From: Thermoanaerobaculia bacterium
GTDB taxonomy: Bacteria > Acidobacteriota > Thermoanaerobaculia > Thermoanaerobaculales > Sulfomarinibacteraceae
NCBI GenBank assembly: GCA_027061805.1
Contig: JAMOWA010000020.1
Coordinates: forward strand, 1-56,246
Direction: 5' to 3'
Length of the DNA: 56,246 nucleotides
The stretch's first letter is position 1, and each line of letters opens with the position of its first letter. The notes beneath the pieces are model-generated. The model made no database searches. It had not been told where the DNA came from and saw nothing but the letters and a program-made list of their open reading frames with translations. The translations under genes were made by a program, and so were the position numbers. Positions 1 through 44,617 of this stretch are shown here, one piece after another.

Positions 1-17
1 GGGGAAGGAGGTGCCGC

Positions 18-1241
18 ATGACCGTCTGGAGAGCGATCCGCCCGCTGGACGTGCTCTACCTTCGGGGCAACCGGCTGTTCGGCGCGGCGGCGGGGCACTC
101 GGAGGCGTTGATGCCGCCGTGGCCGTCGGTGTTCGCCGGGGCGATCCGGAGCCGGATGCTGGTGGACGCCGGAGTGGATCTCGGCCGGTTCACGAACGAG
201 GATGCCTCACCGCCGGCAGGGCTCGGTGGTGTGCTGGGAACGCCCGCGGAACCGGGCACCTTCCGGGTCGCCCACGTGGCGCTGCTCGCGCCCGGGAAGG
301 ACGGCGAGCCGGGAGAACCCGTCTTCCCCCTCCCAGCCGACCTCGTGGTGGTCCGTGAGTCCGGAAAGGCGGCTTCCGGCTGCGGAGGAGACGAGAAACG
401 GTCCCGCGACGGTCTGGAGGTGCACCGCCTGGTCCCGAGCCCCTGGCCCGATGCCATCGCGACCTCGGCGGCCCCGCAGCGGGCCCTCGCGTTGCGGCTG
501 TCAAGACCCGCGAAGCCGGAAACGGGATGGTGGCTCGACCTCGACGGGTACGAGACCTGGCTTGCGGGCGAGACGCCCTCCCCGGAGCGGCTCGTGGCGG
601 TCCGGGATCTCTGGAAGACCGACCTGCGGCTCGGCATCGCGCTCGACGACGCCAGCCGGACGTCGGCGACAGGCCAGCTCTACACCTCGGACGCCGTGGC
701 CATGGCCCGGGGGGCCGGGTTCCTCGTGGGGATCGAGGGGGCCTCCGATGGAGACGTCCCCTCGGAGGGGCTGCTCCGGCTCGGCGGTGATGGCCGCGGG
801 GCGGAGATCACGGCGTGGAGCGGCCCCGTGCCCGGCGATCCCGGGGTGCGCCCCGGCGAGCCGTTCGTGCTCTTCCTCGAGACGCCGGGGCTGTTCCCGG
901 ACGGCTGGGTCCCGCCCGGGGTGGATCCGGAGAGCCTCCGGCTGGAGGCGGACGGCCTCACCGCCCGTCTCGCCGCCGCCGCCGTGCCGCGGGCGCAGGT
1001 GGTGTCGGGGTGGGACGTGGCGGCGCACCGGCCCAAGCCCGCCCAGCGGGCCGTGCCCGCCGGGGCGGTCTACTGCTTCGACCGGGTGTCCGGCGATCCG
1101 GCGGCATCCGTGGAGAGCCTCTGGCGGCTGATCGAGGCGCGGCTCGGCGGAGGCTGGGACACGGTCTGGAAACAGCGCCGCGCCGAGGGGTTCAACGCCG
1201 TGCGCCTCGGCCGCTGGCCGGGAGAGGCCGGCCGTGACTGA
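18..1241 (+). CDS. cmr3: Type III-B CRISPR RAMP protein Cmr3
   Basis: Cmr3 is a RAMP subunit of the Cmr effector complex; with Cmr2/Cas10 it caps the 5' handle end of the crRNA. The 407-residue product begins with the family's typical strand and loop (IRPLDVLYLRGNRLFG, then MPPWPSVFAGAIRSRML), which is the RAMP fold's first strand and conserved helix. The C-terminus has a glycine-rich loop (GGGWDTVWKQ) as in other Cmr3 proteins. The ATG at 18 is preceded by a strong AAGGAGGTG ribosome binding site, so the start is secure. cmr2/cas10 should lie immediately upstream, outside the window. The next Cmr gene does not follow directly: about 280 bp of repeat-bearing DNA separates it from cmr4, which is unusual for a Cmr operon. 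Confidence 0.88.
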   Translation: MTVWRAIRPLDVLYLRGNRLFGAAAGHSEALMPPWPSVFAGAIRSRMLVDAGVDLGRFTNEDASPPAGLGGVLGTPAEPGTFRVAHVALLAPGKDGEPGEPVFPLPADLVVVRESGKAASGCGGDEKRSRDGLEVHRLVPSPWPDAIATSAAPQRALALRLSRPAKPETGWWLDLDGYETWLAGETPSPERLVAVRDLWKTDLRLGIALDDASRTSATGQLYTSDAVAMARGAGFLVGIEGASDGDVPSEGLLRLGGDGRGAEITAWSGPVPGDPGVRPGEPFVLFLETPGLFPDGWVPPGVDPESLRLEADGLTARLAAAAVPRAQVVSGWDVAAHRPKPAQRAVPAGAVYCFDRVSGDPAASVESLWRLIEARLGGGWDTVWKQRRAEGFNAVRLGRWPGEAGRD

Positions 1242-1329
1242 GCCTCGCCCGCGCGGCTCGATCGTGGAGCGCGGACCTCGGTCCGTGGGGAAGGGAATGG
1301 TCCCGGTGCTCTCCGTGCCGATTGAGGAA

Positions 1330-1462
1330 TGCGGGCTGAAGCCCGCGCTCCCACGGGGCCTTCGTGGAGCGCGGGCTTCAGCCCGCCATCACCGAGGTTG
1401 TGGCGGAGGAGCTGCGCGCGGCGGCCACAAAGGCCCCCTCGGAGCGCGGGTTTCAGCCCGCA
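1330..1462. repeat. Palindromic REP-like cluster between cmr3 and cmr4 (3 copies)
   Basis: The gap 1242-1519 contains three copies of a 22-bp palindromic element whose core is GCGGGCTGAAGCCCGC plus GCTCC. One copy reads forward (1330-1351) and two read in reverse (1366-1387 and 1441-1462, the last with one C-to-T change). The first two are arranged head to head, as in bacterial interspersed mosaic elements, and could form a long hairpin in RNA between cmr3 and cmr4. No gene is visible in the gap. Confidence 0.9.
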
Positions 1463-1519
1463 AGATTTCCGTGGGGATTCGAGAAGAACACGACGGACAG
1501 ATTGCGAGGAGGTGAATCC

Positions 1520-2440
1520 ATGTTCGAAGTGAAGCAACCACTGTTCATCTACTGCATCAGCCCGGTCCACATGGGCGCGGGCACGGCGCTGGGCGCCGTG
1601 GACAACCCGATCCAGCGGGAGGTCCACACGGGGCATCCGAACATGGCGGGGTCGGGCCTCAAGGGCGCGTTCCGGGATGTCTTCGAGGCTGCCACGAGCA
1701 AGGCCGAGGCCAACGCGATCTTCGGTCCCGCGGGAGAGGGGGCCAACGCCTCCGACCACGCCGGGGCGATCTCCTTCGCCGACGCCCAGCTCGTGCTGTT
1801 CCCGGTCCGGTCGCTGCGCCGTTCCTTCGTCTACGCCACCTGCCCCACCGCCCTGGGACGGCTCCAGCGGCTGCTCGCGATCGCCGGGATCGAGGATGCG
1901 AAAAGCTGGAGCATCCCCGACGTGACGGACGATCACTGCGTCGTCGTCGAGGGTTCGAAAGCCGTTGCAGACGGGAAACTCGTCCTCGAGGCGTACCAGT
2001 TCGAGGCCAGGTCCGATGCCGCGCTGAAGAACATCGCCAAGTGGCTCGCGGACAACGCGCTGCCGGCCGATGAGGGAACCGCCTACTTCCGGTCCAAGCT
2101 GGAATCGGACCTCGTGCTGCTTTCCGACGAGCGGTTCAACCACTTCGTCCGCCACGCCACGCTCGTGGAGCCCCACGTGCGGATCTCCGATGAGAGCGGC
2201 ACGGCGGATGACGGCGGGCTCTTCTACACCGAGAACCTGCCGCCCGAGTCGCTGCTGGTCTCCCTCGCCATGGCCTCCAAGCAGCGGGTGAAGAAGGGGA
2301 ACAGCGACGGCGATGGGAAGTCAGCGGCCGAGGTCCTGAAAGCGGTCCGGGGCTCCATCGACGGGGAGCTCGTCCAGGTGGGCGGCGACGCCACCACCGG
2401 CCGCGGCCAGGTGGTGCTGCGCTTCGCGGGAGGTGCGTGA
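1520..2440 (+). CDS. cmr4: Type III-B CRISPR RAMP protein Cmr4 (backbone, target-RNA cleavage)
   Basis: Cmr4 forms the repeated backbone of the Cmr complex and cuts target RNA every six nucleotides. The 306-residue product starts with the family hallmark: CISPVHMGAG, then VDNPIQRE, then GSGLKGAFRD. Asp28 in VDNPIQRE is at the position of the catalytic aspartate known in Cmr4 proteins, so the subunit looks active. The C-terminal GDATTGRGQV is the usual RAMP glycine-rich loop. The ATG at 1520 follows GAGGAGGTG; reading could extend upstream to 1364, but that part is repeat DNA and was excluded. The stop overlaps the start of cmr5 by one base (TGATG), indicating translational coupling. Confidence 0.92.
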   Translation: MFEVKQPLFIYCISPVHMGAGTALGAVDNPIQREVHTGHPNMAGSGLKGAFRDVFEAATSKAEANAIFGPAGEGANASDHAGAISFADAQLVLFPVRSLRRSFVYATCPTALGRLQRLLAIAGIEDAKSWSIPDVTDDHCVVVEGSKAVADGKLVLEAYQFEARSDAALKNIAKWLADNALPADEGTAYFRSKLESDLVLLSDERFNHFVRHATLVEPHVRISDESGTADDGGLFYTENLPPESLLVSLAMASKQRVKKGNSDGDGKSAAEVLKAVRGSIDGELVQVGGDATTGRGQVVLRFAGGA

Positions 2441-2829
2441 TGGCGGGCAAGAAGACGATGCAGACCCTCGACCAGGAACGGGCGGCGTTCGCGTGGCAGA
2501 AGGTGGCCGAGGCAAAGACAAAGCTGGGCGACAAGAGAAAGTTCGACAACTACACCAACCTGGCCAAGTCGGCACCAGCGCTCATCATGGGCAACGGTCT
2601 CATGGCGACACTCGCGTTCTTCCAGCAGAAGAGCGAAGAGTCCCGGGTTCTCAACGGTGCGATCTGCGGCTGGCTTGTGAAGAGCACCGCCTTCATCATG
2701 GGCTCCGAATACGCAACCGTGATGGAAGGTCTCCACGGCGCCGACGCCGCTCAGTACCTCCACGCCACCGAGGAGGCGCTCGAGATCCTCCGCTGGATCC
2801 GGCAGTTCGCGCCGACGCTGAAGGGGTGA
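2440..2829 (+). CDS. cmr5: Type III-B CRISPR small subunit Cmr5
   Basis: Cmr5 is the small helical subunit that lines the crRNA-target duplex in the Cmr complex. The product has 129 residues, the usual size, is predicted to be all helical, and has the family opening (LDQERAAFAWQKV) and the conserved KYxxLAKSAP-like segment (NYTNLAKSAPALIMGNGL) that places it confidently. I use the ATG at 2440, which overlaps the cmr4 stop; an in-frame GTG lies one codon earlier. It sits between cmr4 and cmr6 as in many Cmr operons, with only four bases before cmr6. Confidence 0.9.
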   Translation: MAGKKTMQTLDQERAAFAWQKVAEAKTKLGDKRKFDNYTNLAKSAPALIMGNGLMATLAFFQQKSEESRVLNGAICGWLVKSTAFIMGSEYATVMEGLHGADAAQYLHATEEALEILRWIRQFAPTLKG

Positions 2830-2833
2830 GGCC

Positions 2834-4249
2834 ATGCGAGCAGCGGTACCGAAAAAGGTGGGTACGGACTTCTCCAAGGCGCCGCCAGGCCACCGGTTCC
2901 GGCTGTACTTCGAGGTCTGGAACGACGGTTGGACCATTGACTCCCAGAAAAAGAAGGACGCGGTGGCCAGGGTCCTGGACATGGGCCCTGCACGTGAGAT
3001 CGTCGAGGCCCTGAACGCCCGCTCCCGGCACTTCGGTGAAGGGGTCTTTCGCCTCGATGCCGTCGCCACCGCCCCCTTCGTCACCGGGATGGGGATGGAG
3101 CACCCGCTGGAGAACGGCTTCGCCTTCCTCGATCCCTACGGCGTGCCCTACCTGCCGGGAAGCTCGGTCAAGGGCGTGCTGCGCCGCGCCGCCGAGGAGC
3201 TGGCGCTCTTCGAGGCGGACAGCCGGGGCTGGACCCTGGCCGCCGTCTGGTGGCTCTTCGGCTTCGACGCGAGCAGCGGCTTCTTCGGCCGGGGAAAGAA
3301 GGACGATCCCGAGCCGATCCGCGAGGAACGCGAGCGCTGGCACGGGGCCTACCGCAAATGGAGCGCGGGCTTCAGCCCGCAGACACCCCCCGGCGAATCC
3401 GGAAGCGCGGCCCCCGGCCCGCACGATCCCGGCGGCATCCTCGAGGCGTTTCGCAGACTCGTCGATCGCGGTGGCAAGCTCGGCACGACCGCGGCCGACT
3501 TCCTGCAGGCGCTCGAGGAAGACGCCTCCGCCCGCAACTCCATCCACACCCGCGGCTCCCTGGGCTTCCGCGACGTGATCCCCCTTCCGGGGAAGGGCGA
3601 CACAGCCAACCTGCGTGTGGACATCATGAACCCGCACTACACCCACTACTACCAGGGCAAGGAGCCGCCCCACGACGCGGGCAGCCCCAACCCGATCTTC
3701 TACCTGACCGTCCCGCCCGGCTGGCGGTTCCCCTTCACCGTGGACCTCCTGCCGGTCCGGGGCCTTCCAGCCTGGTTCACCGAGGAGACCGAAGGCGTCC
3801 CCCGCTGGCAGGCCCTCCTCCACGCCGCCTTCGAGCACGCCTTCGACTGGCTCGGCTTCGGCGCCAAGACCAGCCTGGGGTATGGGGGGATGGACGTGGA
3901 CCGGGAGGCGGAGGAACGGGCTCGGAAGGAGGCGGAAGCGAGACAGCGGGAGGAGGAGCGGCGGCAGAGGGAGGAAGAGGAGCGCCGTGCGCGGGAAGAG
4001 GAGGAGGCAAGGCTCGCTGCCATGACCCCACTGGAGAGAGAGCTGGAGAAGCTGCAATCGGCGGACCACGACGGATTCATCGAAGTCTTCCGGGAGCTCG
4101 ACAGGTTCGAGGGCGAGGAGCAGAGACGTCTTGCTGAGGCGCTCAAGGGATGGATGCAGGAACACGGTGAATGGAAGATCAAGAAGAAGAAGGGGAAGAA
4201 GTGGGACCGTGTCAGAACGATCAAGGAGATCCTCGGGGAGGCGACATGA
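2834..4249 (+). CDS. cmr6: Type III-B CRISPR RAMP protein Cmr6 with charged C-terminal extension
   Basis: Cmr6 is a RAMP subunit at the 3' end of the crRNA in the Cmr complex. Residues about 70-110 contain the diagnostic RAMP stretch (TGMGMEHPLENG, then PYLPGSSVKGVLRRA) and LGFGAKTSLGYGG is the glycine-rich loop near residue 345. At 471 residues it is much longer than usual. After the RAMP core comes a highly charged Glu/Arg helix (about residues 355-398), probably a coiled coil, and a lysine-rich tail ending near the stop. Residues 176-183 (WSAGFSPQ) are encoded by a complete copy of the local palindromic repeat, followed by a Pro/Gly/Ser-rich linker, so a repeat has been tolerated inside the gene. 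The stop overlaps cmr1 by four bases (ATGA). Confidence 0.88.
   Translation: MRAAVPKKVGTDFSKAPPGHRFRLYFEVWNDGWTIDSQKKKDAVARVLDMGPAREIVEALNARSRHFGEGVFRLDAVATAPFVTGMGMEHPLENGFAFLDPYGVPYLPGSSVKGVLRRAAEELALFEADSRGWTLAAVWWLFGFDASSGFFGRGKKDDPEPIREERERWHGAYRKWSAGFSPQTPPGESGSAAPGPHDPGGILEAFRRLVDRGGKLGTTAADFLQALEEDASARNSIHTRGSLGFRDVIPLPGKGDTANLRVDIMNPHYTHYYQGKEPPHDAGSPNPIFYLTVPPGWRFPFTVDLLPVRGLPAWFTEETEGVPRWQALLHAAFEHAFDWLGFGAKTSLGYGGMDVDREAEERARKEAEARQREEERRQREEEERRAREEEEARLAAMTPLERELEKLQSADHDGFIEVFRELDRFEGEEQRRLAEALKGWMQEHGEWKIKKKKGKKWDRVRTIKEILGEAT
3360..3381 (-). repeat. REP-like palindrome inside the cmr6 reading frame
   Basis: A full reverse-orientation copy of the 22-bp locus repeat (core GCGGGCTTCAGCCCGC) lies in frame within cmr6. 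It encodes WSAGFSPQ and does not interrupt translation. Confidence 0.9.
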
Positions 4250-5355
4250 AGACGCGAGCCGTCACGCTGGAGTTCGTCACGCCCGCGTTTCTGGGCGGGG
4301 CGGACCAGTCCTCCGAATGGCGCACGCCGCCGATCAAGGCGATGCTCCGCCAGTGGTGGAGGATCTGGGCCGCCTCGGGAAGCCGGTACAACTGGAAAGC
4401 GGTGCGGGAGATCGAGGGCGTCATCTTCGGTCATGCCGCGCTCGAACACAACGGAAAGGCCTGGCACATCAGGAGCCCGGTCAGGCTCCGGTTGAGACCA
4501 GTCCGCACCGATTGGATCGAAGACTGGTCTCCCACCGGGAAGGTCCATCATCCGGAAGTGGGCAAAGGGCCCAATGGCATGGACGTTGGCGCCGACCTGT
4601 ACCTCGGCTACGGTCCGCTGGCGTACCAGAAGGGCCCGGGCACGGTGCTGAAGGCGCCTCCCGCCCTCGGCCCAGGATCCTCGGGCGAGCTGCTCCTTCG
4701 CTATCCGGAGACGCTCCCGGTGGACGAGTTCACCTCCGTCGATGTGGATGCCGGGCTCTCGGCTGCGTTGCATCTCGCACACCTCTTCGGCACGGTGGGC
4801 TCCCGGAGCCGGAACGGCTGGGGTTCTTTCGAGCTCTCGCATGATGGAAGGCCACTCTTGCTGGAGAACGACCTCCGCGATCTGGCACAGAAGTACGCGC
4901 GCCCCCTCGACAAATGTCTCGAGCTGGAATGGCCCCATGCCATCGGGACCGATGAGAAAGGGCTGCTCCTCTGGAGGACGAAGGCGGCATTCCGCACCTG
5001 GGGCGAGGTCATGAAGGAGCTCGCCCGGGTGAAAATCGCGTTCAGGACGGCGCTTGATCCTGGGGGCAGGCTCACCGACGTCAGGGAGCGACATGTTTTG
5101 GCTTATCCAGTGACAAACCACACTGTCAACAGTTGGGGAAAGAACTCTCGTCTTGCCAACCAGCTGCGTTTCAAGGTCCACCGCACCGGTGATGGGAGGT
5201 TCCAGGGTTGGGCGTACCACCTGCCGTGTGGTCTCCCGCAGACGCTCGTCGAGAAACTGTCGGCGGAGGAGCAGCGGAACGTCCGCCAGATGGAGGCCCG
5301 TACCTGGCGAAAGGTCCACGGAATCCTTGACGAGAACATGGATCGTTGGATGTGA
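4246..5355 (+). CDS. cmr1: Type III-B CRISPR RAMP protein Cmr1
   Basis: Cmr1 is the RAMP subunit that, with Cmr6, closes the 3' end of the Cmr effector. The 369-residue product opens with the family signature: LEFVTPAFLGGADQ, then EWRTPPIKAMLRQWWR, and a later glycine-rich segment GTVGSRSRNGWGSF. I chose the ATG at 4246 because it overlaps the cmr6 stop as ATGA and begins exactly at the conserved first strand; an in-frame ATG at 4171 would only add cmr6-overlapping sequence. It is the last gene of the cmr4-5-6-1 block. Immediately downstream is a cluster of palindromic repeats rather than another cas gene. Confidence 0.9.
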   Translation: MKTRAVTLEFVTPAFLGGADQSSEWRTPPIKAMLRQWWRIWAASGSRYNWKAVREIEGVIFGHAALEHNGKAWHIRSPVRLRLRPVRTDWIEDWSPTGKVHHPEVGKGPNGMDVGADLYLGYGPLAYQKGPGTVLKAPPALGPGSSGELLLRYPETLPVDEFTSVDVDAGLSAALHLAHLFGTVGSRSRNGWGSFELSHDGRPLLLENDLRDLAQKYARPLDKCLELEWPHAIGTDEKGLLLWRTKAAFRTWGEVMKELARVKIAFRTALDPGGRLTDVRERHVLAYPVTNHTVNSWGKNSRLANQLRFKVHRTGDGRFQGWAYHLPCGLPQTLVEKLSAEEQRNVRQMEARTWRKVHGILDENMDRWM

Positions 5356-5406
5356 CCCTCATGGCGCCTCCCCAACCACCCCGTTTTCTGTTGAGAACAT
5401 GCCGGA

Positions 5407-5506
5407 TGCGGGCTGAAGCCCGCGCTCCCCAAGGGGGTAAGTTCATGCGGGCTGAAGCCCGCGCTCCGTGGGGGGACGCTTCGGGGAGCGCGGGCTTCAG
5501 CCCGCA
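5407..5506. repeat. REP-like cluster between cmr1 and vapBC (3 copies)
   Basis: Three copies of the 22-bp palindromic repeat: forward at 5407-5428 and 5446-5467, reverse at 5485-5506. It lies between the convergent ends of cmr1 and vapC, where such hairpins could also act as transcription terminators. Confidence 0.9.
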
Positions 5507-5534
5507 TTGGAATCGCCCGGATTGGTCTTGCTCG

Positions 5535-5909
5535 TCAGCTTTTCATTCCGTCCCACCCGCACCCCAGCTCCGTGGCCGCCGCGGCCAGTTTCCGGTCGAG
5601 GGTCCACAGGGGGGCGGAGGCGAGGCGGGCGGAGGCCAGGAGGTGTACGTCGATCCAGCCAAGGCCGCGGCCGTGCAGGCCGTGGGATTCGAGCAGCGTG
5701 AGGGCCTCGTCGAAGGTGGCCACAGAGACCCGGGGCAGATCCTGGAGCAGTCCGAGGATCTCCGCGCGGTTTCGCAGTCCGCCGCAGGCGAGCTCGCCGA
5801 TCACGTGCTCGTGGCACAGGACCAGGCCCTCGTCGAGCAGACGGACGAGCCTGGCATTCCCCCGGCGCAGGTGGTCCACCCACACGGAGGTGTCCACCAG
5901 GACGATCAT
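5535..5909 (-). CDS. vapC: VapC-type PIN-domain toxin ribonuclease
   Basis: VapC toxins are PIN-domain, metal-dependent RNases, usually directed at tRNA or rRNA. The 124-residue product is full length for the family. It begins MIVLVDTSVWVDHLR with the first acidic PIN residue (Asp6), has the second acidic site in HVIGELACGGL, and the third in LGWIDVHLLASA, so the acidic triad looks intact. Its start overlaps the end of the upstream vapB by four bases, the usual antitoxin-toxin coupling. The pair sits on the opposite strand in the middle of the CRISPR locus, between cmr1 and the CARF RNase, with palindromic repeats on both sides. Confidence 0.88.
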   Translation of the reverse strand: MIVLVDTSVWVDHLRRGNARLVRLLDEGLVLCHEHVIGELACGGLRNRAEILGLLQDLPRVSVATFDEALTLLESHGLHGRGLGWIDVHLLASARLASAPLWTLDRKLAAAATELGCGWDGMKS

Positions 5910-6097
5910 GCGCTCCTGCGCCTCGGAGGCAGCTCGAGCTCCGGCTCGGTGCCGCCGAGGCGGGCGAGCCGGCGGGCGCTCTCCAGGGCGATCAGCGCCT
6001 CCAGGCCCCGGCGGACCAGCGCCGTCTTCTCCTCGATCCCCGTCAGCCTCCGGGCCTTCTCGAGGAGGTCGTCGTCGATGTTGAGGGTCGTTCTCAT
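5906..6097 (-). CDS. vapB: VapB-type antitoxin
   Basis: This 63-residue protein has the short N-terminal strand (MRTTLNIDDDLLEKARRLTG) and helix pair of VapB antitoxins that bind DNA as ribbon-helix-helix-like dimers; the C-terminal tail, rich in Arg and Pro, would wrap the toxin. I start at the ATG at 6097 because it begins the conserved MRTTLNID strand; longer readings run into palindromic repeat DNA. A good promoter lies directly upstream, with TTGACA and CATCTT boxes 17 bases apart. Antitoxins of this type normally repress their own promoter together with the toxin. Confidence 0.82.
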   Translation of the reverse strand: MRTTLNIDDDLLEKARRLTGIEEKTALVRRGLEALIALESARRLARLGGTEPELELPPRRRSA

Positions 6098-6104
6098 GCA
6101 GATC

Positions 6105-6133
6105 AAGATGCCTCTTTCGTGCATCATTGTCAA
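6105..6133 (-). promoter_or_regulatory. Predicted vapBC promoter (leaderless)
   Basis: On the minus strand a perfect TTGACA box (6128-6133) is followed after 17 bases by CATCTT (6105-6110). The -10 box ends only seven bases before the vapB ATG, so the transcript would begin at or next to the start codon. Confidence 0.5.
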
Positions 6134-6179
6134 TGGGAAACCCATGAGGAGCGTGCAGGGGGCCACGGGTGGCGACGGA

Positions 6180-6279
6180 TGCGGGCTGAAGCCCGCGCTC
6201 CGTGGGGAGGCTCTTCGGGGAGCGCGGGCTTCAGCCCGCATGAGTCTTCTCGACAACGGAGCGCGGGCTTCAGCCCGCA
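6180..6279. repeat. REP-like cluster between vapBC and the CARF RNase (3 copies)
   Basis: Copies of the 22-bp palindrome at 6180-6201 (forward), 6219-6240 and 6258-6279 (reverse). With the cluster at 5407-5506 it brackets the vapBC pair. Confidence 0.9.
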
Positions 6280-6385
6280 TTCCAAACATTCAATCGCACC
6301 ACGCCGTTCTCCGGTCCCCCGGAGAAACCCGGCCTCGCCCACGGTGGGAGGGACGGTGCATCGCCGATGACTTGGAGGTCGTGAC

Positions 6386-7750
6386 ATGACGGATATCCTG
6401 CTGATCAACCTCGGGAAAGGGAGCACCGCACTCCCGCCCCTCGGCTACGACAGGACCGTGTACCGGTTCGAGGAGGATGGTTTCGAGCTGGAGACCGTCG
6501 TCGCGGGACTGGCGCTGTGGAAACACCTTGTCCACACTAGTTCCGCTCCAGTGTCGGTGCGCTTTGCCGCCACGCGGGAGGCCTGGGAGGGGAAGGAAAA
6601 GGCCATCCGAGAGGAGGTGGCCGCGGTGGGGCTCGATGCGGCGGCGCTGGGGCCTCCGTTCTTCGTGGAGATACCGCGGAGCATTGAGGGTCTCTGGTCC
6701 GTCCTGCCCCACCTGGAGGAATGGGCTGAACAGCACCGGGAAGACGGAGAGCCGCCGGTCCTCCACATGGACCTGACCCACGCCTGGCGCGCCATCCCAA
6801 TCTCGCAACCCTGGCTCGCCCTGTTCCTCCAGCGGATCGGCTTCGTCGAGATCGGCGTGATGGGGTATGGGGCGTACGTCCCGAATCAGCCGCCGGCGCC
6901 CTACATCGACCTCTCGGCGGTGATGGGGCTCGCGGAATGGGCCGCGGGGGTTCGCGACTTCGAGCGCTACGGGCGGGCGGGAACATTGCGTGAGCTGATG
7001 GATGGTCAGAGTCAGCGTTGGACGAGGGACGTCTTCGTGACCGGTAAGAAACGGGATCTCGAGGGTGCCCTGACGTACCTGAGGACCCTGGTGAACGCGG
7101 CCAAGGCCATGGAAGCCTTTCTCCCGGCAGGTCTTCCCATCGAGCTGGGGTTGGAGGCGCGGGGGGCCCTCGGAAGCTCCTCTGGCGAGGATCTTGCGGC
7201 TGGGCTGGAGCGTCTGGTCCCTGGAATGGGTCCCCTGGGGGAAAGGCTTCATCGAGCGGCGTCACGTTTCGCATGGAGAGGGGCCGTGCCTTCGAAGGGA
7301 GAGAAGGAGAAACGCGCACGGCTCGACGTGGGGGAAATCGAGCGCGAGCTGGACCTCGTGGAGTACTGGACCGAGCTTGGTGCGGTGGGAGAGGCCCTTC
7401 GTGCGTTGCGGGAGCTCATGGTCAACCGGGTGCTTCTGGCACGGGGGATGCAAACGAGATGGTTGTGTCCTGAGAACCGGAAAGCTGCGGAGAGCGCCTT
7501 GAACAGCATCCGGCCAACCAAGGATAGCCCTTGCTACTCCAGCCTGCCCGATCGGCTGCGAACGCTTGGAGGCCTCTGGCACGAAGTCTGCGAGGAGCGC
7601 AACGCCTTCGCCCACGCCGGGATGAAACCGGGCGCGGTCAGGGTTCGCGACAAGAAAGATCGGCTCCGCGGTTTCATCGAGCGCTTCAACGAGCTCGATG
7701 AACAGGGGGATGGTTTGTGGAAGCTCCGCGGTTCGCCGGAGGATGTGTGA
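6386..7750 (+). CDS. Csx1/Csx2-like CARF-HEPN ribonuclease (TM1812 family)
   Basis: Proteins of this type are ancillary RNases of type III CRISPR systems: the N-terminal CARF domain binds cyclic oligoadenylate made by Cas10 and switches on a C-terminal HEPN RNase. The 454-residue product starts with a Rossmann-like strand (DILLINLGKG) and has DLTHAWRAIP at about residues 129-138, the conserved DxTHxxR-type motif of the TM1812/Csx2 branch. The HEPN active site is visible as R405-N-A-F-A-H410, an Rx4H motif, so the nuclease should be active. The ATG at 6386 has a GGAGGT site upstream. The gene stands alone between two palindromic repeat clusters. Family is clear; whether it should be named csx1 or csx2 is not. 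Confidence 0.82.
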   Translation: MTDILLINLGKGSTALPPLGYDRTVYRFEEDGFELETVVAGLALWKHLVHTSSAPVSVRFAATREAWEGKEKAIREEVAAVGLDAAALGPPFFVEIPRSIEGLWSVLPHLEEWAEQHREDGEPPVLHMDLTHAWRAIPISQPWLALFLQRIGFVEIGVMGYGAYVPNQPPAPYIDLSAVMGLAEWAAGVRDFERYGRAGTLRELMDGQSQRWTRDVFVTGKKRDLEGALTYLRTLVNAAKAMEAFLPAGLPIELGLEARGALGSSSGEDLAAGLERLVPGMGPLGERLHRAASRFAWRGAVPSKGEKEKRARLDVGEIERELDLVEYWTELGAVGEALRALRELMVNRVLLARGMQTRWLCPENRKAAESALNSIRPTKDSPCYSSLPDRLRTLGGLWHEVCEERNAFAHAGMKPGAVRVRDKKDRLRGFIERFNELDEQGDGLWKLRGSPEDV

Positions 7751-7869
7751 TTCGACACCGTGATCGCCTCGTGGTCTCGTTCTTTCCGAAGCGTGGACGC
7801 GCTGCCCTGCGGAGCTGTTCCGGAGCACGGGCGTCAGTTCGCAAACGACGACATCGTTGGGAAAGGCAA

Positions 7870-8117
7870 TGCGGGCTGAAGCCTGCGCTTTGCAGGGAAG
7901 AAGGATTATGCGGGCTGAAGCCCGCGCTCCGATGGGTCGGACCGCCGGGTGAGGCCGCCACGGAGTGTCCGCAGGGATGCCGTGGACGGCGGCTGTGAAA
8001 GAAGCGGGAGGCGACGTTGCAGGGCCTCTTGGGTTCGACACGGCAAGAGAGCGACATGCGGGCTGAAGCCCGCGCTCCCTGAAAGATGTCCCCACGGAGC
8101 GCGGGCTTCAGCCCGCA
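7870..8117. repeat. REP-like cluster between CARF RNase and primase-polymerase (4 copies)
   Basis: The 449-bp gap 7751-8199 has four copies of the 22-bp palindrome: 7870-7891 (degenerate), 7909-7930 and 8057-8078 (forward) and 8096-8117 (reverse). I see no gene in the gap. Confidence 0.85.
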
Positions 8118-8199
8118 TCGTTCCATGTGGTGGTGGAATGGCGGTGAAACGTCGCGAGCCTTGGCCGGTGCCGGCTGACCGTGGAAAGGAGGCCCAATC

Positions 8200-10137
8200 A
8201 TGACGACAACTCTCGACGCTCTTCAGCACGCCCTCTCCCAGAACAACCGCGAGACGGCCCGGGCCGCCCTGGGCGAGCTGATCCGGAACGCACCCGGGGT
8301 GCGCGATCCAGCCCACCACCTGGCGCTGGGTGCCGCCGCGGAGGAGCTCGGGGCCTGGGAGGCCGCGGAGACGGCCTACAACCTGGTGCTGCGGGAGGAC
8401 GCGGCACATCCCGTGGCCCTGGAACGGCTGGCGGAGCTGGCAGCCGAGGCCGGTGACCTGGAGAGTGCGGCCATCCGGCGCGAGCGCCTGGCGGAGGCCC
8501 GGCCGGACGATGTGGAGAACCTCAAGGCATTGTTGCGTCTCTACCAGCGGCTGGGGTGGCGAGAGCAGGTGGAACGGATGGCCGGGAGGCTCGAGACCGC
8601 CGGGGTGCGGCTTCCGCGTTCCGGGACGCTGGAGGCACCGGTGCCGGCCGGAACGGAGGCAACGGAGGAGGAGGTCTCGTCATCTCTCCTGGAGCGGGTG
8701 GTGAACCCTCCCGATGCCGATGTGGCCCGCTTCCTTTCGCTCTTCTCGGGGAGGGAGGACGTGTACGCCCGTCAGTGGTACAACCCGAGGAAGGGCATTG
8801 CGGGGTACTCGCCGGTCGAGGAGCCGCTCACGGCCCGGGTGGTGCGGCGGCATCTCTTCGGTGACCTCACCGTGGGCGTCTATCCCATCCGGCTGGACGG
8901 GACGGTGGTGTTCATGGCGCTGGATCTGGACCTCACCCGGGCCGCCATGGAATGGGCCCGCCGGGGCCGGGAGGAGGCGGCCTCGGTGCGCCGGAACCTC
9001 GAGACGGCGGTGGCCGCGGCCCTGGATGCCTCGGAGAAGGCCGGCCTCACTCCTCTCGTGGAGGACTCAGGGTACAAGGGGCGGCACCTGTGGTTCTTCC
9101 TGGAGCAGCCGGAGCGCGTCACCGTGGTCCACTCGGTGATCCGGGCACTGGTGCGCTCCTTCGAGGAGCAGGTGCCTGCGGGTGTCGCGGTGGAACACTT
9201 CCCGAAGCAGGCGCGCCGTGGCGGCAAGGGCTACGGCAACCTCATCAAGCTGCCCCTGGGGGTCCACAGGCGGACGGGCCGGCGGGCATGGCTCCTGGAC
9301 GGAAGCGGGAAACCCCACCAGGACCCCTTCGGCCTGCTGCGCATGGTGCAGAGGCTGGGCCACGGTGCCCTCATGGTGGTGGCCGAGCGGCTGGGTGAGA
9401 CGGTGGGAGCTCCGCCCCTGGAAGCTCCCTGGGAGGGAGAGGAGACCCTACCGGCGCCGCCGCCCCCCGCGCCGGTCACGGATCCCGGCGTCCAGGCCGC
9501 GGTGCCACCCGCCTGGACCGGGGCGGACTTCGAGCGCCACCCGGTCATCGCCCACGTGCTGGCCCGCTGTCCTGTGCTCGCCGAGATCGTCCGGCGGGGC
9601 ATCGAGGATCGGAGCCTGGAGCACGACGAGATGATCGTGCTCCAGCAGACCTTCGGCTACCTGCCCGGTGGTGTGGCGGCGAGCAACTACGTGCTGGAAC
9701 GTGCTGTCGGGATCGGGGAGGACCGGCACCTCAAGTCGCCCTTGCGGGGCAATCCCATCTCCTGCCCGAAGATCCGTCAGAGGGTGCCGCACATCACGTC
9801 CAGGGTGGCATGCCGCTGCGAGTTCCCGGAGGACGTGGACCATTACCCCACACCCGTCCTCCACCTGAGAAGCGCCCCGCAGGAGGGGGCCGTTCCGGAA
9901 GGGGATTCGAGGGGTGACCTGGAGGGCCTGGCCCGCCGTTTCCTGACCCAGGCGGCCCTGGTGGAGGCCGCGCGGAGGGACCTGGCCGCCCTGGAGACGG
10001 CACTGGCCGGCCAGCTCGCGGCCGCTGGCGGTCTTCTGGTGGTGGACGGGGTCCAGTTGCATGTGGAGGTGCGGGAAGGCGTGCCCCACGTGGCTTGGAG
10101 CAAGAAGGAGGACAGCCGGAAGGAGAAGGGTCAGTGA
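8200..10137 (+). CDS. CRISPR-associated primase-polymerase (TPR + AEP + PriL-like Cys module)
   Basis: This 645-residue protein is an archaeo-eukaryotic-type primase-polymerase of the kind reported beside cas1 and cas2 in type III loci (CAPP). Residues about 1-130 are helical repeats of TPR type. The catalytic core follows: motif I LDLDLT with Asp242 and Asp244, motif II SGYKGRH at 290-296, and motif III around Glu332 (VEHFPK). Family members can make primers and fill gaps, and a role in spacer acquisition has been proposed. Beyond a Pro-rich linker (about 405-435), the C-terminal region has Cys457, Cys522, Cys538 and Cys540, spaced like the four Fe-S cysteines of the PriL primase subunit; that assignment is my inference. 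The ATG follows AAAGGAGG. cas1 lies 277 bp downstream. Confidence 0.8.
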   Translation: MTTTLDALQHALSQNNRETARAALGELIRNAPGVRDPAHHLALGAAAEELGAWEAAETAYNLVLREDAAHPVALERLAELAAEAGDLESAAIRRERLAEARPDDVENLKALLRLYQRLGWREQVERMAGRLETAGVRLPRSGTLEAPVPAGTEATEEEVSSSLLERVVNPPDADVARFLSLFSGREDVYARQWYNPRKGIAGYSPVEEPLTARVVRRHLFGDLTVGVYPIRLDGTVVFMALDLDLTRAAMEWARRGREEAASVRRNLETAVAAALDASEKAGLTPLVEDSGYKGRHLWFFLEQPERVTVVHSVIRALVRSFEEQVPAGVAVEHFPKQARRGGKGYGNLIKLPLGVHRRTGRRAWLLDGSGKPHQDPFGLLRMVQRLGHGALMVVAERLGETVGAPPLEAPWEGEETLPAPPPPAPVTDPGVQAAVPPAWTGADFERHPVIAHVLARCPVLAEIVRRGIEDRSLEHDEMIVLQQTFGYLPGGVAASNYVLERAVGIGEDRHLKSPLRGNPISCPKIRQRVPHITSRVACRCEFPEDVDHYPTPVLHLRSAPQEGAVPEGDSRGDLEGLARRFLTQAALVEAARRDLAALETALAGQLAAAGGLLVVDGVQLHVEVREGVPHVAWSKKEDSRKEKGQ

Positions 10138-10225
10138 ACGGGTGGTGCAAGGACCGGCGGGCGGCGCCCGACCGGTATCGTGGGGCCGCTCCCCGTGTCG
10201 CCGAACCACCGGGGAAGGCTGTCAC

Positions 10226-10353
10226 GGAGCGCAGACTTCAGCCCGCAGGGATCCTGGTAGTTGAGTTCTCGGTACCGCCGCATGGTGGCGCTGGACGAGC
10301 CCGTTGGCCTTCGTTGGCAAGAGAAAGAATATGCGGGCTGAAGCCCGCGCTCC
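10226..10353. repeat. REP-like pair upstream of cas1 (2 copies)
   Basis: One degenerate reverse copy (10226-10247) and one exact forward copy (10332-10353) of the 22-bp palindrome, in the 277-bp gap before cas1. Confidence 0.8.
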
Positions 10354-10414
10354 GTGGTGTTGTGTCTGGGGGCGCACGCCGCGGGCCCGTGTTTGAGAGG
10401 GCGGAGGAGGGCGC

Positions 10415-11491
10415 ATGTATTTCGTCGTGAACGAGGGAGGCGCTCGCCTCGCCTGCGAGGGGGAACGCCTCCGGGTGCTCCGCGAGGGGAAGGTGGTCCA
10501 GGAGGTACGTCTCCAGGACCTGGAGGGCGTGCTGGCCCTCCGTGCGGTGGGCCTCACTGCCCGCGCGGCCCGGAGTCTGTTGCGCCACGGCATCGAGGTC
10601 ACCTTCCTCGATACACAGGGCCGCTTCCTCGGGCGCCTGTCGGGGCCGGGCTCCCGGAACGCGGGGCTGCGCCTCGCGCAGGTCCGCAGGGCCCTTGACG
10701 AGCCGTTCCGGCTGGCGCTGGCCGCCCGGTTCGTCGAGGGCAAGCTGAGGAACCAGCGGGCGGTTCTGCTGCGGTACCGACGCAGGCACGACCGCGAGGC
10801 GATCCGGGACGCGGCCGGCCGGCTCCGGATCCTCGCCGAGCGGACGGGGGAGGCCGCGGACCTCGACGAGCTGATGGGGATCGAGGGGGCCGGTTCGCAG
10901 GTGTACTTCTCGGTCTTCGGCCGGCTGATCCGGAACCCGCTGTTCTCCTTCTCCGGAAGGAACAGGAGACCGCCGCGCGATCCCGTGAACGCCTGTCTCT
11001 CCTTCGGCTACACCATTACGGGGGCCATCATCGAGGGTGAGGTGGCCGGGGCCGGTCTCGATCCGGCGCAGGGGTATCTGCACCGTCCGGCGTGGAACCG
11101 TCCCTCGCTGGCACTGGATCTGCTGGAGGAGATGCGGGCCCCCGTGGTGGACTCCCTGGTGCTCACGCTGATCAACAGGAGCCAGCTGGGGCCAGCAGAT
11201 TTCGGACCGCCGGGCAGCAGGGTGGAGGAGGACGCCGGAGAGACCTCGCCGTGGCTGGAGGAGGATCGGGAACCCGCTCCAAACCGGGAGGGAGCCGTCC
11301 ACCTGGGTCGAACGGGGCGCCCGGTGTTCCTCAAGGCGCTTCTCGACAGGTTGCGGGAGCCGCGGCTGCACGTTCCCACGGGGCAGCAGCTCGAGATCCG
11401 TGAGATCTTCCGGAGGCAGGTGTGGAGCCTGGTCCGGGCCATCACGGAGGGAGACCCTGCCCTCTACGTCCCGTGGCAGGTGGAGGGTTGA
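10415..11491 (+). CDS. cas1: CRISPR adaptation integrase Cas1
   Basis: Cas1 is the integrase that inserts new spacers at the leader end of the array, acting as a complex with Cas2. The 358-residue product has all the family landmarks: Glu157 in the GIEG segment, His223 in YLHRP, and SLALDLLEEMRAPVVD with Asp235 and Glu238 at the third metal-ligand region, so the active site is complete. The N-terminal beta-rich domain begins at MYFVVNEGG. A GGAGGAGG site precedes the ATG. A stretch of about 45 residues after RSQLG (residues 255-300, rich in Pro, Gly and Glu) is an insertion relative to compact Cas1 proteins. cas2 begins three bases after the stop. No reverse transcriptase domain is fused to it. 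Confidence 0.95.
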   Translation: MYFVVNEGGARLACEGERLRVLREGKVVQEVRLQDLEGVLALRAVGLTARAARSLLRHGIEVTFLDTQGRFLGRLSGPGSRNAGLRLAQVRRALDEPFRLALAARFVEGKLRNQRAVLLRYRRRHDREAIRDAAGRLRILAERTGEAADLDELMGIEGAGSQVYFSVFGRLIRNPLFSFSGRNRRPPRDPVNACLSFGYTITGAIIEGEVAGAGLDPAQGYLHRPAWNRPSLALDLLEEMRAPVVDSLVLTLINRSQLGPADFGPPGSRVEEDAGETSPWLEEDREPAPNREGAVHLGRTGRPVFLKALLDRLREPRLHVPTGQQLEIREIFRRQVWSLVRAITEGDPALYVPWQVEG

Positions 11492-11493
11492 AG

Positions 11494-11772
11494 ATGTACG
11501 TACTGGTGGCCTACGACGTGGTGAGTGACCGGCGCCGTGCCAGGCTGGCCAGGCGGCTGGTGGACTTCCTGCCGAGGGTCCAGAAGTCCGTCTTCGAGGG
11601 AGAGGTGCCCGACCAGCGCTTCAGGGAGCTGGAACGGGTGCTCCAGGACGGAATCGACCCGGAGGTGGACTCCGTCCGGATCTACCACCTCTGCCGACGG
11701 TGCTGGGGCTCGGTGCTGGAGATGGGCAGGGGGAGCCTGCCGGTGGATTCGAGGGACGATGTCATCCTCTGA
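11494..11772 (+). CDS. cas2: CRISPR adaptation protein Cas2
   Basis: Cas2 is the dimeric scaffold of the Cas1-Cas2 integration complex. The 92-residue product is the normal size and starts MYVLVAYDVVSDRRRARLAR with the typical ferredoxin-like first strand and the conserved Asp8. The middle segment LPRVQKSVFEGEV and the strand DSVRIYHLC are likewise characteristic. The ATG at 11494 lies just after the cas1 stop; longer readings overlap cas1. The array's leader follows downstream. Confidence 0.93.
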   Translation: MYVLVAYDVVSDRRRARLARRLVDFLPRVQKSVFEGEVPDQRFRELERVLQDGIDPEVDSVRIYHLCRRCWGSVLEMGRGSLPVDSRDDVIL

Positions 11773-11941
11773 GTGTGGCGTCTCCGACGGCAGAGGGTCC
11801 CGGCCTCACGGGCCGGGCTCGACGCGGGAGAAACGTGAGCCACTTGCAGAACTTTCTGAAGATCATGCCTTTCGGCCTGGCGTGAAATCGAAGGTATGTC
11901 CGGATTCTTACCATCTTCTTCAAGATCCGAAAAATCCGTGG

Positions 11942-11973
11942 AATCCGTGGTTCATTCTCCCGGGCGGGTGGGG
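11942..11973 (+). repeat. Flanking repeat element, left copy
   Basis: The element reads AATCCGTGGTTCATTCTCC followed by CGGGCGGGTGGGGG. It is preceded by a partial AATCCGTGG repeat. A second copy with the same two parts occurs in inverted orientation at 16420-16453, on the other side of the array and cas6. Confidence 0.75.
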
Positions 11974-12169
11974 GCCGATGCCGCGAGAATCCTCCTCGAC
12001 CCAGGACTCTTGCAACAGGCTCACGTGGTACCTGGCGCTTCGGTGGTGGGCCGGTCCCGAGGCTGTTGCGTTGTTTCCAACGTGCGTGGATACGGGATGA
12101 TGTGATGGCATCGACATCTGCCTTGCCCCGGGGTCGGAGCTCTGTCCGTGCCGTGGAGGCCGATATCCC

Positions 12170-12720: not shown

Positions 12721-15365
12721 GTTCCAATAGATGACCCGATGAAAAGGGGATTACGACCAAGTTCTGGGCTGCGTTCTCCCAGGCGTCGGCATCGGTTCCA
12801 ATAGATGACCCGATGAAAAGGGGATTACGACCCGCGTGCTCCCACGCGCCCCTCTCCGTGAACCCAGTGTTCCAATAGATGACCCGATGAAAAGGGGATT
12901 ACGACCCTGGCGTGCCCTTTACCGAGTCCTGATTGCCTCAAAAGTTCCAATAGATGACCCGATGAAAAGGGGATTACGACCGCGTGCTCCCACGCGCCCC
13001 TCTCCGTGAACCCAGTGCGTTCCAATAGATGACCCGATGAAAAGGGGATTACGACATCAGCTCACGCGCATGCCGCGCGTCACGCGCCACGTTCCAATAG
13101 ATGACCCGATGAAAAGGGGATTACGACCGGGTTGCCCTCACGTGTGCGTGCGCCTGGCCAACCAGGTTCCAATAGATGACCCGATGAAAAGGGGATTACG
13201 ACAGCCACCGCACGCGCCCGCACGGCATCACGTAGCCGGTTCCAATAGATGACCCGATGAAAAGGGGATTACGACTGTACGGGCAGCCCGTGGAGTGGTT
13301 GTGGCGGGAGATGGTTCCAATAGATGACCCGATGAAAAGGGGATTACGACTCTCGCTCGGCCCGTACCACTTACGACGTTGCATGATGTTCCAATAGATG
13401 ACCCGATGAAAAGGGGATTACGACGTCCACGACCTGCCAGCGCCCATCGTCCACAGCATGGTTCCAATAGATGACCCGATGAAAAGGGGATTACGACCCA
13501 CCCCCGACCGTCACCGTCACGGTCGGGGGGCAATGTTCCAATAGATGACCCGATGAAAAGGGGATTACGACTCGACCAGCGTCAACCGCTGATCGGGGTT
13601 GTAACAGGGGGTTCCAATAGATGACCCGATGAAAAGGGGATTACGACTCGACAGACCACCAGCCGCCGACCACGACAGTCTCGCGTTCCAATAGATGACC
13701 CGATGAAAAGGGGATTACGACATTGACAGTTGATTCTGGCACGAGTTCGACGGTCATGTTCCAATAGATGACCCGATGAAAAGGGGATTACGACGCACTC
13801 ATACGGGCGACCGTCGAGCTCATCGATGACGTTCCAATAGATGACCCGATGAAAAGGGGATTACGACGAAGGCAGAACTGCAGACTGTCGGCCGTCCCTA
13901 AATAGTTCCAATAGATGACCCGATGAAAAGGGGATTACGACAACGCTCCAGGATCGAGGAGATGATGACCTCGCGGGGTTCCAATAGATGACCCGATGAA
14001 AAGGGGATTACGACCCGGCCGGGCTCATGCGCCCCCCATGTCAAGCAGCAGTTCCAATAGATGACCCGATGAAAAGGGGATTACGACGAGGAACCCCTCA
14101 CGGACGTAGGTCTCAAAAGAGTCGTTCCAATAGATGACCCGATGAAAAGGGGATTACGACCCTTGTCCGTGCCATACACGGCATCGAGATAGAACACGTT
14201 CCAATAGATGACCCGATGAAAAGGGGATTACGACCCGGGCCTTCGTGGTTCACGATGGCGTAGTACATCTGTCTCGTTCCAATAGATGACCCGATGAAAA
14301 GGGGATTACGACTCGAGGGTGCGCACGGCCTCCGCCTCGATGCTGTACAGTTCCAATAGATGACCCGATGAAAAGGGGATTACGACAGCCCCGTTGTCCG
14401 CGATGGCAGTGATCCCGCGCGGGGTTCCAATAGATGACCCGATGAAAAGGGGATTACGACCGCCGGGCGGGAGAGAGCGGAGGAGCAGGTAGTCGTAAGT
14501 TCCAATAGATGACCCGATGAAAAGGGGATTACGACCCGCGTCCACGTCACGGTGGGGGACCCCGTACACGCACGGTTCCAATAGATGACCCGATGAAAAG
14601 GGGATTACGACCCGGACGCCGTCACGGTCCAGTCCTCGCCACCGTACAGGTTCCAATAGATGACCCGATGAAAAGGGGATTACGACCTCCGCGTCCTCAC
14701 GGAACTCACCGGCGGAGACCCGCCTGTTCCAATAGATGACCCGATGAAAAGGGGATTACGACTGGTCACGATGAGATCAACCATTGCCATTGCTTCCCTC
14801 GTTCCAATAGATGACCCGATGAAAAGGGGATTACGACAGCTGATCGAGCAGCGCTTCCGCGATATCCCACCGCCGGTTCCAATAGATGACCCGATGAAAA
14901 GGGGATTACGACTTCAACCACCCCAAATACCTCCAAACTATCCACAACCTTGTTCCAATAGATGACCCGATGAAAAGGGGATTACGACTTCAACCACCCC
15001 AAATACCTCCAAACTATCCACAACCTTGTTCCAATAGATGACCCGATGAAAAGGGGATTACGACCTCATCTCCTCCCTCCCTCCTCATACCACACCATAT
15101 CAAGTTCCAATAGATGACCCGATGAAAAGGGGATTACGACAATCTCATCCAAACTAATCTTCCCCTCCCTAATCATCTTCCAATAGATGACCCGATGAAA
15201 AGGGGATTACGACCCCCCTGCCAGGATGCAGCGATGGTGGTGAGCCCGCTGCGTTCCAATAGATGACCCGATGAAAAGGGGATTACGACCAGTAAGGTTG
15301 ACGGTCGCACGAACCGCAGGAACAAATGGTTCCAATTGATGACCCGATGAAAGGGGGGCCCGGTC
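12721..15365 (+). CRISPR. Type III CRISPR array: 36 repeats, 35 spacers
   Basis: The 37-bp repeat begins GTTCCAATAG, has a middle GACCCGATGAAAAGG and ends GGATTACGAC. Thirty-five copies are complete (one, at 15177, has its first G changed to C); the thirty-sixth, at 15329, is degenerate after the middle and marks the trailer end. Spacers are 36-39 bp. Transcription is expected left to right: the last eight bases ATTACGAC resemble the 5' handles of type III crRNAs, the decayed repeat is at the right, and cas1-cas2 are at the left. Spacers 2 and 4 overlap over 36 bases with a one-base offset; spacers 30 and 31 are identical; spacers 30-33 have no G; spacer 11 is a hairpin. Apparent reading frames through the array are repeat translations only. 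Confidence 0.98.
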
Positions 15366-15436: not shown

Positions 15437-16342
15437 TCAGGCCCGGTGTGCGGGGTGGACCTCGAAGGCACCGTTGCCGAAGGCGCACCTCTTGCCCACG
15501 CCCACGAGGCTGCAGCCGGCGACGATGGGAAGCAGTTCGGGGGGTACGCCCCGCCAGAGGGCCTCGCCCGTGAACCCGGAGATGGAGTAGCTTTCCCCCG
15601 TCCTCCCGCTCCTGCGCCGCCGGCGGACCCAGGTGGTCCTGTCCTCGAGGAGGGCCACGGCATCGGCGAGCCTTCCCAGGGCGGCGAAGTCCCATTCCGG
15701 CGGCCCGCCGCACCAGGCGGCGGCGAGGGTGGACAGCCGGTCGCGCATCCTCCGGATGACCGGGCCGGGCTCGGGCCGGTCCACGGGCGAGCCGCCGGAG
15801 GCGATGCTGGCGGGGGCCGTGAAGCGGAGCAGGAGATCGGGACCCAGTCCGCCAGGAACCCAGTCGTCCAGGGGCCGGGGCGCCGGGGGATCATCGGGGG
15901 AGAGGGGGCGCTCACCCCCCGGTTCGAGGCAGGTGATCCCGGCCAGCTCGAAGGGAGGCCCCCCCCTGTGGAGGCCGCGGGACTCCAGCTTCAGGAAGAT
16001 GCGGGTGATCCGGGGCAGGAGGGCCGCCGCGGAGCCCACGAGGACCAGCTGGAACGTGGAGTCCACCCGGGGGTCCGGGCGGAAGACGTAGGGGCGGGGA
16101 ACCGCCGCGTTCCTGGTGAGCACCTTCATGTGGGCGGGCCGGGCGGCGAAGAGCTGGCCGTAGGAGCACTCCGCCAGGTGGGGGCAGGGATCGCAGGGAT
16201 CGTTCCATCGGGGCTTCGGGCACACCATGCGGCGGTACTGGAGGAGCAGGGCACCCCGGAGGATCACGGGGTCCACGCTGCCGCCGTCACCGTGGAAGCG
16301 GAGGCGCCAGCGGGTCACCAGGACCTTCAGCGGGGCAAGCAT
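15437..16342 (-). CDS. cas6: CRISPR pre-crRNA endoribonuclease Cas6
   Basis: Cas6 cuts the array transcript within each repeat to give crRNAs for the Cmr complex. The 301-residue product has the C-terminal Cas6 signature: a strand and helix FTGEALWRG, then LLPIVAGCSLVGVGKRCAFGNG with the glycine-rich loop. Near the N-terminus Cys41, Cys50, Cys53 and Cys59 form a CX8CX2CX5C set, seen in one branch of Cas6 proteins and likely to bind metal. I use the ATG at 16342, directly behind a TACAAT box; readings further upstream run through simple repeats. It is convergent with the array and ends 72 bp from the terminal repeat, and it is separated from the other cas genes by the array itself. Confidence 0.85.
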   Translation of the reverse strand: MLAPLKVLVTRWRLRFHGDGGSVDPVILRGALLLQYRRMVCPKPRWNDPCDPCPHLAECSYGQLFAARPAHMKVLTRNAAVPRPYVFRPDPRVDSTFQLVLVGSAAALLPRITRIFLKLESRGLHRGGPPFELAGITCLEPGGERPLSPDDPPAPRPLDDWVPGGLGPDLLLRFTAPASIASGGSPVDRPEPGPVIRRMRDRLSTLAAAWCGGPPEWDFAALGRLADAVALLEDRTTWVRRRRRSGRTGESYSISGFTGEALWRGVPPELLPIVAGCSLVGVGKRCAFGNGAFEVHPAHRA

Positions 16343-16348
16343 GGTCCC

Positions 16349-16354
16349 ATTGTA
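16349..16354 (-). promoter_or_regulatory. cas6 -10 box, predicted leaderless promoter
   Basis: TACAAT on the minus strand ends six bases before the cas6 ATG, so transcription should start at or beside the start codon. No clear -35 box or ribosome binding site is visible. Confidence 0.5.
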
Positions 16355-16382
16355 CCCGCCGGGAGGCCCCATCCGCCCGTCC

Positions 16383-16453
16383 CCGTGAAATGGGAAACGT
16401 GAAACGTGAAACGAAGGAGCCCCCGCCCGCCCGGGGAGAATGAACCACGGATT
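16383..16453. repeat. Composite repeat upstream of cas6: heptamers plus G-rich core plus flanking element
   Basis: Four heptamers (GTGAAAT, GGGAAAC, GTGAAAC, GTGAAAC) are followed by a C-rich core (on the minus strand CCGGGCGGGCGGGGG) and then by the inverted copy of the AATCCGTGGTTCATTCTCC element (16420-16453). Confidence 0.8.
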
Positions 16454-16590
16454 GTGCGGATTCGGTGGATTGGTGGGAAGACGGCGAAAACTCGACGTGT
16501 GTCCGATGCTGCACCAGGCCAATGGGTTCGTTCCGATGGAGCGTGTTGCAGGAAGCCCAGCGGGCTGCCGCCCGTCCGGCGGAGCGAAGA

Positions 16591-16730
16591 CACGGACAGG
16601 GACAGGGACACGGTCAGGGACACGGTCAGGGTCGGGGTCAGGGACAGGGTCGGGGACACGGACAGGGCCGGGGTCAAGGTCAGGATCGGGATCGGGGATT
16701 CGGACTGGGCCAGGGTCGGGGTCCGAGGCA
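16591..16730. repeat. Degenerate hexamer minisatellite
   Basis: About 140 bp built from six-base units such as GGGACA, CGGTCA, GGGTCG and CGGACA. It lies in the 630-bp gene-free interval between cas6 and icmF. Confidence 0.85.
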
Positions 16731-16733
16731 GTG

Positions 16734-16790
16734 ACCCCCCCGCCCACCCGGTGAAGGGCTGAAGGGTGAAGAAGGAAGTGAAGGCGTCCG
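16734..16790. repeat. Composite repeat: G-rich core with TTCACCC-like units
   Basis: On the minus strand, degenerate TTCACCC/TTCAGCCC units run into ACCGGGTGGGCGGGGGGG (16734-16752), a sequence able to form a G-quadruplex. The hexamer minisatellite begins immediately next to the core. Confidence 0.75.
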
Positions 16791-16805
16791 CCGTCCACCC
16801 GAGGG

Positions 16806-44467: not shown

Positions 44468-44617
44468 GTGGAAGGTGAGGACGTGAAGAGTGAAGAGGTG
44501 AGGGGTGAAGGCCGACCGTCCGGCCGGCGGGGCGCAGGGGCGCAGGGGAGCGGGGGCGCCGGTACTCTCCATTCTGCCGCATCTTCCCTTGACATGCACA
44601 CTGGAAGTATTTCATCC

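Follow-up and report, generated by a model that had tools for sequence, protein, structure and literature searches.

The window analysed here, 56,246 nt long, makes up the entire contig C20 of a host genome of 3.1 Mb and 68.6% GC, and it opens with a type III-B (Cmr) CRISPR-Cas operon on bases 1-12100, followed by a CRISPR array and then by cas6 on the opposite strand (Table 1). Cas10/Cmr2 is encoded on another contig of the same genome (TIGR02577, 228 bits), and together with Cmr3, Cmr4, Cmr6 and Cmr1, the last of them a weak match (5e-14), it identifies the system as type III-B; in a scan of the larger ORFs for Cmr5, the ORF at 5346-6389 had no match in Pfam, NCBIfam or PADLOC. The CRISPR-associated primase-polymerase (CAPP) scores above the curated PrimPol_Msp cut-off of 200 bits and adjoins cas1 and a probable cas2, so that a CAPP adaptation module is present. 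This adjacency, the Cmr genes, the CARF-HEPN nuclease, the 37-bp repeat and spacers of 35-41 nt are all shared with CAPP type III-B systems of the Marinitoga piezophila type, whereas the block of G-free spacers described below sets the present array apart, such spacers not being mentioned in the passages of that work drawn on here (PMC8211822). A perfect tandem CCGTTTC array of 11.4 copies lies further along the contig, at 44616-44695.

Table 1. Genes of the CRISPR-Cas locus, the array and its G-free spacers, with positions in the window.
Feature	Position	Strand	Evidence or remarks
cmr3	18..1241	+	Pfam 3.4e-60
cmr4	1364..2440	+	PADLOC 4e-63
cmr6	2834..4249	+	PADLOC 4.3e-38
cmr1-like	4171..5355	+	PADLOC 5.1e-14, weak
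Csx1/Csm6-type CARF-HEPN ancillary nuclease	6386..7750	+	PADLOC CARF-HEPN ~1e-35
CRISPR-associated primase-polymerase (CAPP)	8200..10137	+	NCBIfam PrimPol_Msp 268.5 bits; PADLOC PrimPol 9.8e-76
cas1	10415..11491	+	Pfam Cas_Cas1 1.1e-86; PADLOC
probable cas2	11494..11772	+	92 aa, MYVLVAYDVVSDRRRARLARRL...; ORF position and sequence appearance
CRISPR array	12721..15365	+	36 repeats GTTCCAATAGATGACCCGATGAAAAGGGGATTACGAC, 35 spacers; last repeat degenerate, trailer end right
spacer 30	14913..14951	+	G-free, 39 nt; reverse complement open in frame 1: KVVDSLEVFGVVE (direct translation)
spacer 31	14989..15027	+	G-free, exact duplicate of spacer 30
spacer 32	15065..15103	+	G-free, 39 nt, pyrimidine-rich
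spacer 33	15141..15176	+	G-free, 36 nt; reverse complement reads MIREGKISLDEI
cas6	15437..16798	-	Pfam 3.7e-07; PADLOC 3.3e-50

The orientation of the array is given by its two ends. The final copy of the repeat is degenerate, with 8 mismatches, and repeat 34 (15177-15213) carries one change, its first base being C instead of G; cas1, cas2 and a leader-like gap lie at the left end. The decay on the right marks that side as the old end and the crRNAs as copies of the + strand, and the left-to-right reading in the first-pass annotation is thus borne out. An array with a nearly identical repeat occurs in a different genus of the same family (genome G009, contig C170; L077 1-1722), and every repeat listed for it likewise starts with CTTCC. 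Spacers 2 (12832-12868) and 4 (12981-13018) of the present array derive from one protospacer with boundaries 1-2 nt apart, so that one site was sampled twice independently. Spacer 11 (13498-13534) forms an almost perfect hairpin with an 11-bp stem (-23.8 kcal/mol, z -3.6), and its source is possibly a transcription terminator; a spacer of a related-class array (L055), TAGCAGGGCCGAAAGGCCCTGCTACCTAATTTTCAT, also looks hairpin-like by eye.

Spacers 30 to 33 contain no G, as had been noted from the letters of the sequence. Spacers 30 and 31 are identical, spacer 31 being a later duplication, and thus the four positions hold three independent sequences, which sum to 114 nt with A34, C51, T29 and G0. 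With C as the first base of repeat 34, the G-free run that includes spacer 33 extends over 15139-15185, and the window otherwise has no G-less or C-less run of at least 36 nt, the longest being 34 nt. Ordinary spacers flank the block, and the remaining 31 spacers carry 7-19 G each (29.4% G). The strand targeted by the crRNAs of the three sequences has no C and about 45% G, 30% T and 25% A, so that the earlier description of the matched RNA as C-free and G-rich holds, given crRNAs read left to right. All three sequences lie in one orientation and in neighbouring slots, and the block therefore probably reflects one event, not three independent ones.

A plain binomial product gives 5.8e-18 for the three G-free spacers. 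Since spacers derive from elements of differing composition, an overdispersed null was fitted as well, a beta-binomial on 115 spacers from this array and five arrays of related CAPP-family-bearing genomes, and the joint probability was 1.1e-13 when G was scored per length and 1.4e-12 when it was scored as G/(G+C), in keeping with the initial claim that the absence of G is far from chance. Rare events do get spotted when many arrays are read, but at about 1e-12 for three adjacent spacers there is next to no prospect that chance alone yielded the block, which is real, old and not accidental. If the source was homogeneous, its spacer strand held no more than 2.6% G (95% upper bound). Taken together, the six arrays have a longer tail at low G than at low C, and one spacer of the G009 array has only 3 G against 14 C.

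It had been suggested that C was lost from the invader by deamination or was replaced by a modified base. Four composition models were compared, namely ordinary sequence conditioned on the absence of C, and conversion of C to T, to G or to A. With the other spacers as the source, the first of these models fits (p = 0.50), one-step C-to-T conversion is rejected (chi-square p = 4e-4), and C-to-G and C-to-A are rejected at 4e-5 and lower. With symmetric sources of 40-70% GC, C-to-T (p 1e-4 or lower) and C-to-A are rejected throughout, and C-to-G fits only at about 40-55% GC. Simple deamination fails because T makes up 30% of the target strand, against the 45-48% or so that C-to-T conversion predicts. 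Base replacement confined to one strand fails on logic, since a spacer is double-stranded and its opposite strand here is about 45% C; the invader DNA was not short of C, and the unusual feature is the asymmetry between its strands. Hypermutation by C-to-U deamination of invader RNA or single-stranded DNA ahead of capture would leave one strand entirely without C, and reverting T to C in spacer 30 could yield KAADSLEVFGAAE, by eye nearer the tape-measure motif discussed below, but the same shortage of T and the rejections over symmetric sources make it very improbable.

A bias in capture would place the cause in the adaptation machinery. Published CAPPs prime and copy single-stranded DNA, with GTP preferred for the start (PMC8211822), and it has been asked whether the primase-polymerase favours such spacers. 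Among 84 spacers of five other arrays in CAPP-family-bearing genomes, none has fewer than 3 G or fewer than 5 C, thus no general association was found. One could suppose that the source was ordinary and that only G-free templates became spacers, e.g. because dCTP was scarce during CAPP copying of single-stranded prespacers, possibly through a phage dCTPase or a dCTP-deaminase defence. A dCTP shortage would indeed give the observed composition, ordinary GC-rich DNA conditioned on no C; repeat duplication, on the other hand, requires all four dNTPs, and no experiment known to us speaks for de novo synthesis of spacers during dNTP starvation. A DCD-family match is present in the host genome and is uninformative, as this family is nearly universal. 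With the 84 other spacers showing no such bias, we rate capture bias as very improbable.

The next question is which strand of the source was the sense strand. Interference by type III-B systems requires crRNAs antisense to transcripts (PMC5576922). Strand was called by the better frame under host codon usage, a procedure that is 73% correct on host gene fragments, and the better coding frame lay opposite the crRNA strand in 22 of the 31 ordinary spacers (p = 0.03), including 12 of the 13 in positions 17-29, a subset picked out post hoc. This lean is the one that RNA targeting requires. The array of Marinomonas mediterranea, a type III-B system with RT-Cas1, shares the need for antisense crRNAs; it differs in that we noticed no reverse transcriptase among the present cas genes, and in that spacers there enter either way whereas the best coding frames here lean antisense (PMC5576922). 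For the G-free spacers themselves the strand call is ambiguous, spacer 30 scoring better on the + strand and spacer 33 marginally better on the - strand. If spacers 30 and 33 are read in their reverse-complement frames, the third codon positions are G13, T10, A2 and C0, a pattern that on direct reading is leading-strand-like, if the frames are right. Genomes with replication-linked strand asymmetry, whose leading strand is G/T-rich and C-poor, show the same enrichment of G and T and depletion of C (PMC5291525), but the source fitted in the present case, with at most 2.6% C, falls below any genome examined here.

It is conceivable that the sense is the opposite one, i.e. that the G-free strand codes for an A/C-rich gene (FNHPKYLQTIHNL, NLIQTNLPLPNH), that spacers were inserted regardless of transcription and that the crRNAs miss the mRNA. 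Spacer 30 speaks for this with its better score on the + strand and with C at 9 of the 13 third positions there, and the Marinomonas type III-B system does accept spacers in either orientation (PMC5576922). The ordinary spacers point in the opposite direction (22 of 31), MIREGKISLDEI sits on the - strand, and an open + strand says little since TAG and TGA are impossible in a G-free sequence, which leaves most such sequences open; we thus consider the opposite sense unlikely, while leaving it a real share of the probability.

The search of metagenomic viruses for C-free matches that the first-pass annotation had proposed was run on IMG/VR and gave no protospacer. There, spacer 33 had no exact match, spacer 32 none in the one reading frame used, and codon-degenerate versions of spacers 30 and 33 only unrelated or motif-level matches; two C-free Walker-A patterns found nothing, and a C-free REGK-type motif found only an A-rich phage group with 13% C. 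In the genome contigs, a codon-degenerate or amino-acid-level pattern of spacer 30 had no match and codon-degenerate spacer 33 only two AT-rich motif matches, and in 100 relatives spacer 33 with up to 3 mismatches recovered only the array itself. BLASTN against phages and plasmids, for spacer 32 against phages only, gave mostly partial matches of 17-22 nt with E of 0.6 or higher. A Paenibacillus plasmid covering 90% of spacer 30 at 86% identity was set aside, its E of 6 being at chance level. No gene with a Shine-Dalgarno sequence, an ATG and 14 C-free, G/T-ending codons was found in 147 genomes of the class. In three thermophile phages C makes up 14-30% of the sense strand over the sampled genes, and C-free, G-rich 39-mers account for no more than 0.06% of all their 39-mers. 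As neither the sampled phages nor the Walker-A searches revealed such a strand, a virus depleted in C and rich in G throughout its genome would be new. Of the suggestion that the invader has purine-loaded, C-poor transcripts, the composition stands, the target strand being 70% purine, and the reading stays viable; a matching virus was not found.

Alternatively, the block may record just one short C-free, G-rich stretch, low-complexity or intergenic, of an ordinary element or a related chromosome. Genomes of the host family hold many C-free tracts of at least 36 nt, more than the host itself, with as many as about 2000 overlapping 36-mer windows in one genome, and spacer 32 resembles these tracts in texture. 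The host genome itself has 137 overlapping C-free windows in all, the array included, and outside the array its C-free tracts of at least 36 nt are, among those listed, nearly all minisatellites of the GTGAAG type, unlike spacers 30 and 33, which are non-repetitive; in a self-targeting search, spacers 30, 32 and 33 had no second copy anywhere in the host genome. The host minisatellites were rejected as the spacer source by texture. Minisatellites with C-free GTGAAG units are dispersed on host contigs C5, C15, C18, C25, C36 and C40. A single local tract is on the whole unlikely, yet a serious contender.

A lead to the kind of element involved comes from spacer 33. A relaxed codon-level pattern of this spacer matched a Mu-F-like head protein (L009/L011) and a tape-measure protein, family names that were assigned by ORF inspection. 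The pattern E[VIL]FG-x11-[RKQ]EGK occurred in 44 contigs, and in about two dozen of these there are long ORFs that share ..ALEVFGAKAGPRLAAMIREGKLSFEEM.. and that we read, from their sequence, as putative tape-measure proteins. Against a motif profile of 24 of these ORFs, MIREGKISLDEI ranked first among 162 open spacer frames and was matched by 1 in 200,000 shuffles; this value is optimistic, as the idea came from spacer 33 before the profile existed and the sequences in the profile were chosen for sharing part of the motif. Spacer 30 scored weakly on the profile, 3% of its shuffles doing as well, and a tape-measure identity was dropped for it. Spacer-encoded peptides had no match to PF10145, and the X-linked peptide gave only a weak SHOCT-like match in Pfam, PHROGs and phages, so that the REGK-type motif is not confined to phage proteins. 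The tape-measure proteins of the class are encoded by ordinary GC-rich genes. The motif in spacer 33 is thus weak evidence for a tailed-phage source, to be taken as a lead.

The explanation we prefer, which we place at about an even chance, is that the array took up the G-free spacers in one short burst, all from the same mobile element, probably a tailed phage, and that the targeted strand of this element had almost no C, either where it was sampled or throughout. All three G-free spacers would come from this one element; its C-free strand would be the sense strand, and the crRNAs, antisense to a C-free mRNA, would be able to activate Cmr/Cas10. Its poverty in C would be an evolved strand asymmetry, leading-strand-like and G/T-rich, and not the product of chemical conversion. 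Far more tentatively, and as a reading that we hold to be unlikely on balance, there may be a dsDNA virus of the host family with an almost C-free coding strand of about 45% G, sampled repeatedly by the type III-B system. The messages and even the protein composition of this proposed virus would be shaped by avoidance of C, with very little Ala, Pro, Thr, His or Gln.

Should the source prove to be depleted in C over its whole length, no DNA virus known to us would be more strand-asymmetric, and the question would arise of what drives such a composition, whether replication mode, R-loops, dCTP limitation or escape from RNA-guided defence. If the protospacers are instead isolated C-free islands of an ordinary phage, that would be evidence for a choice of templates by composition in the adaptation machinery, a trait of the primase-polymerase that could be tested. 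In both cases the G-free block, with its three sequences of 36-39 nt, makes a precise search probe.
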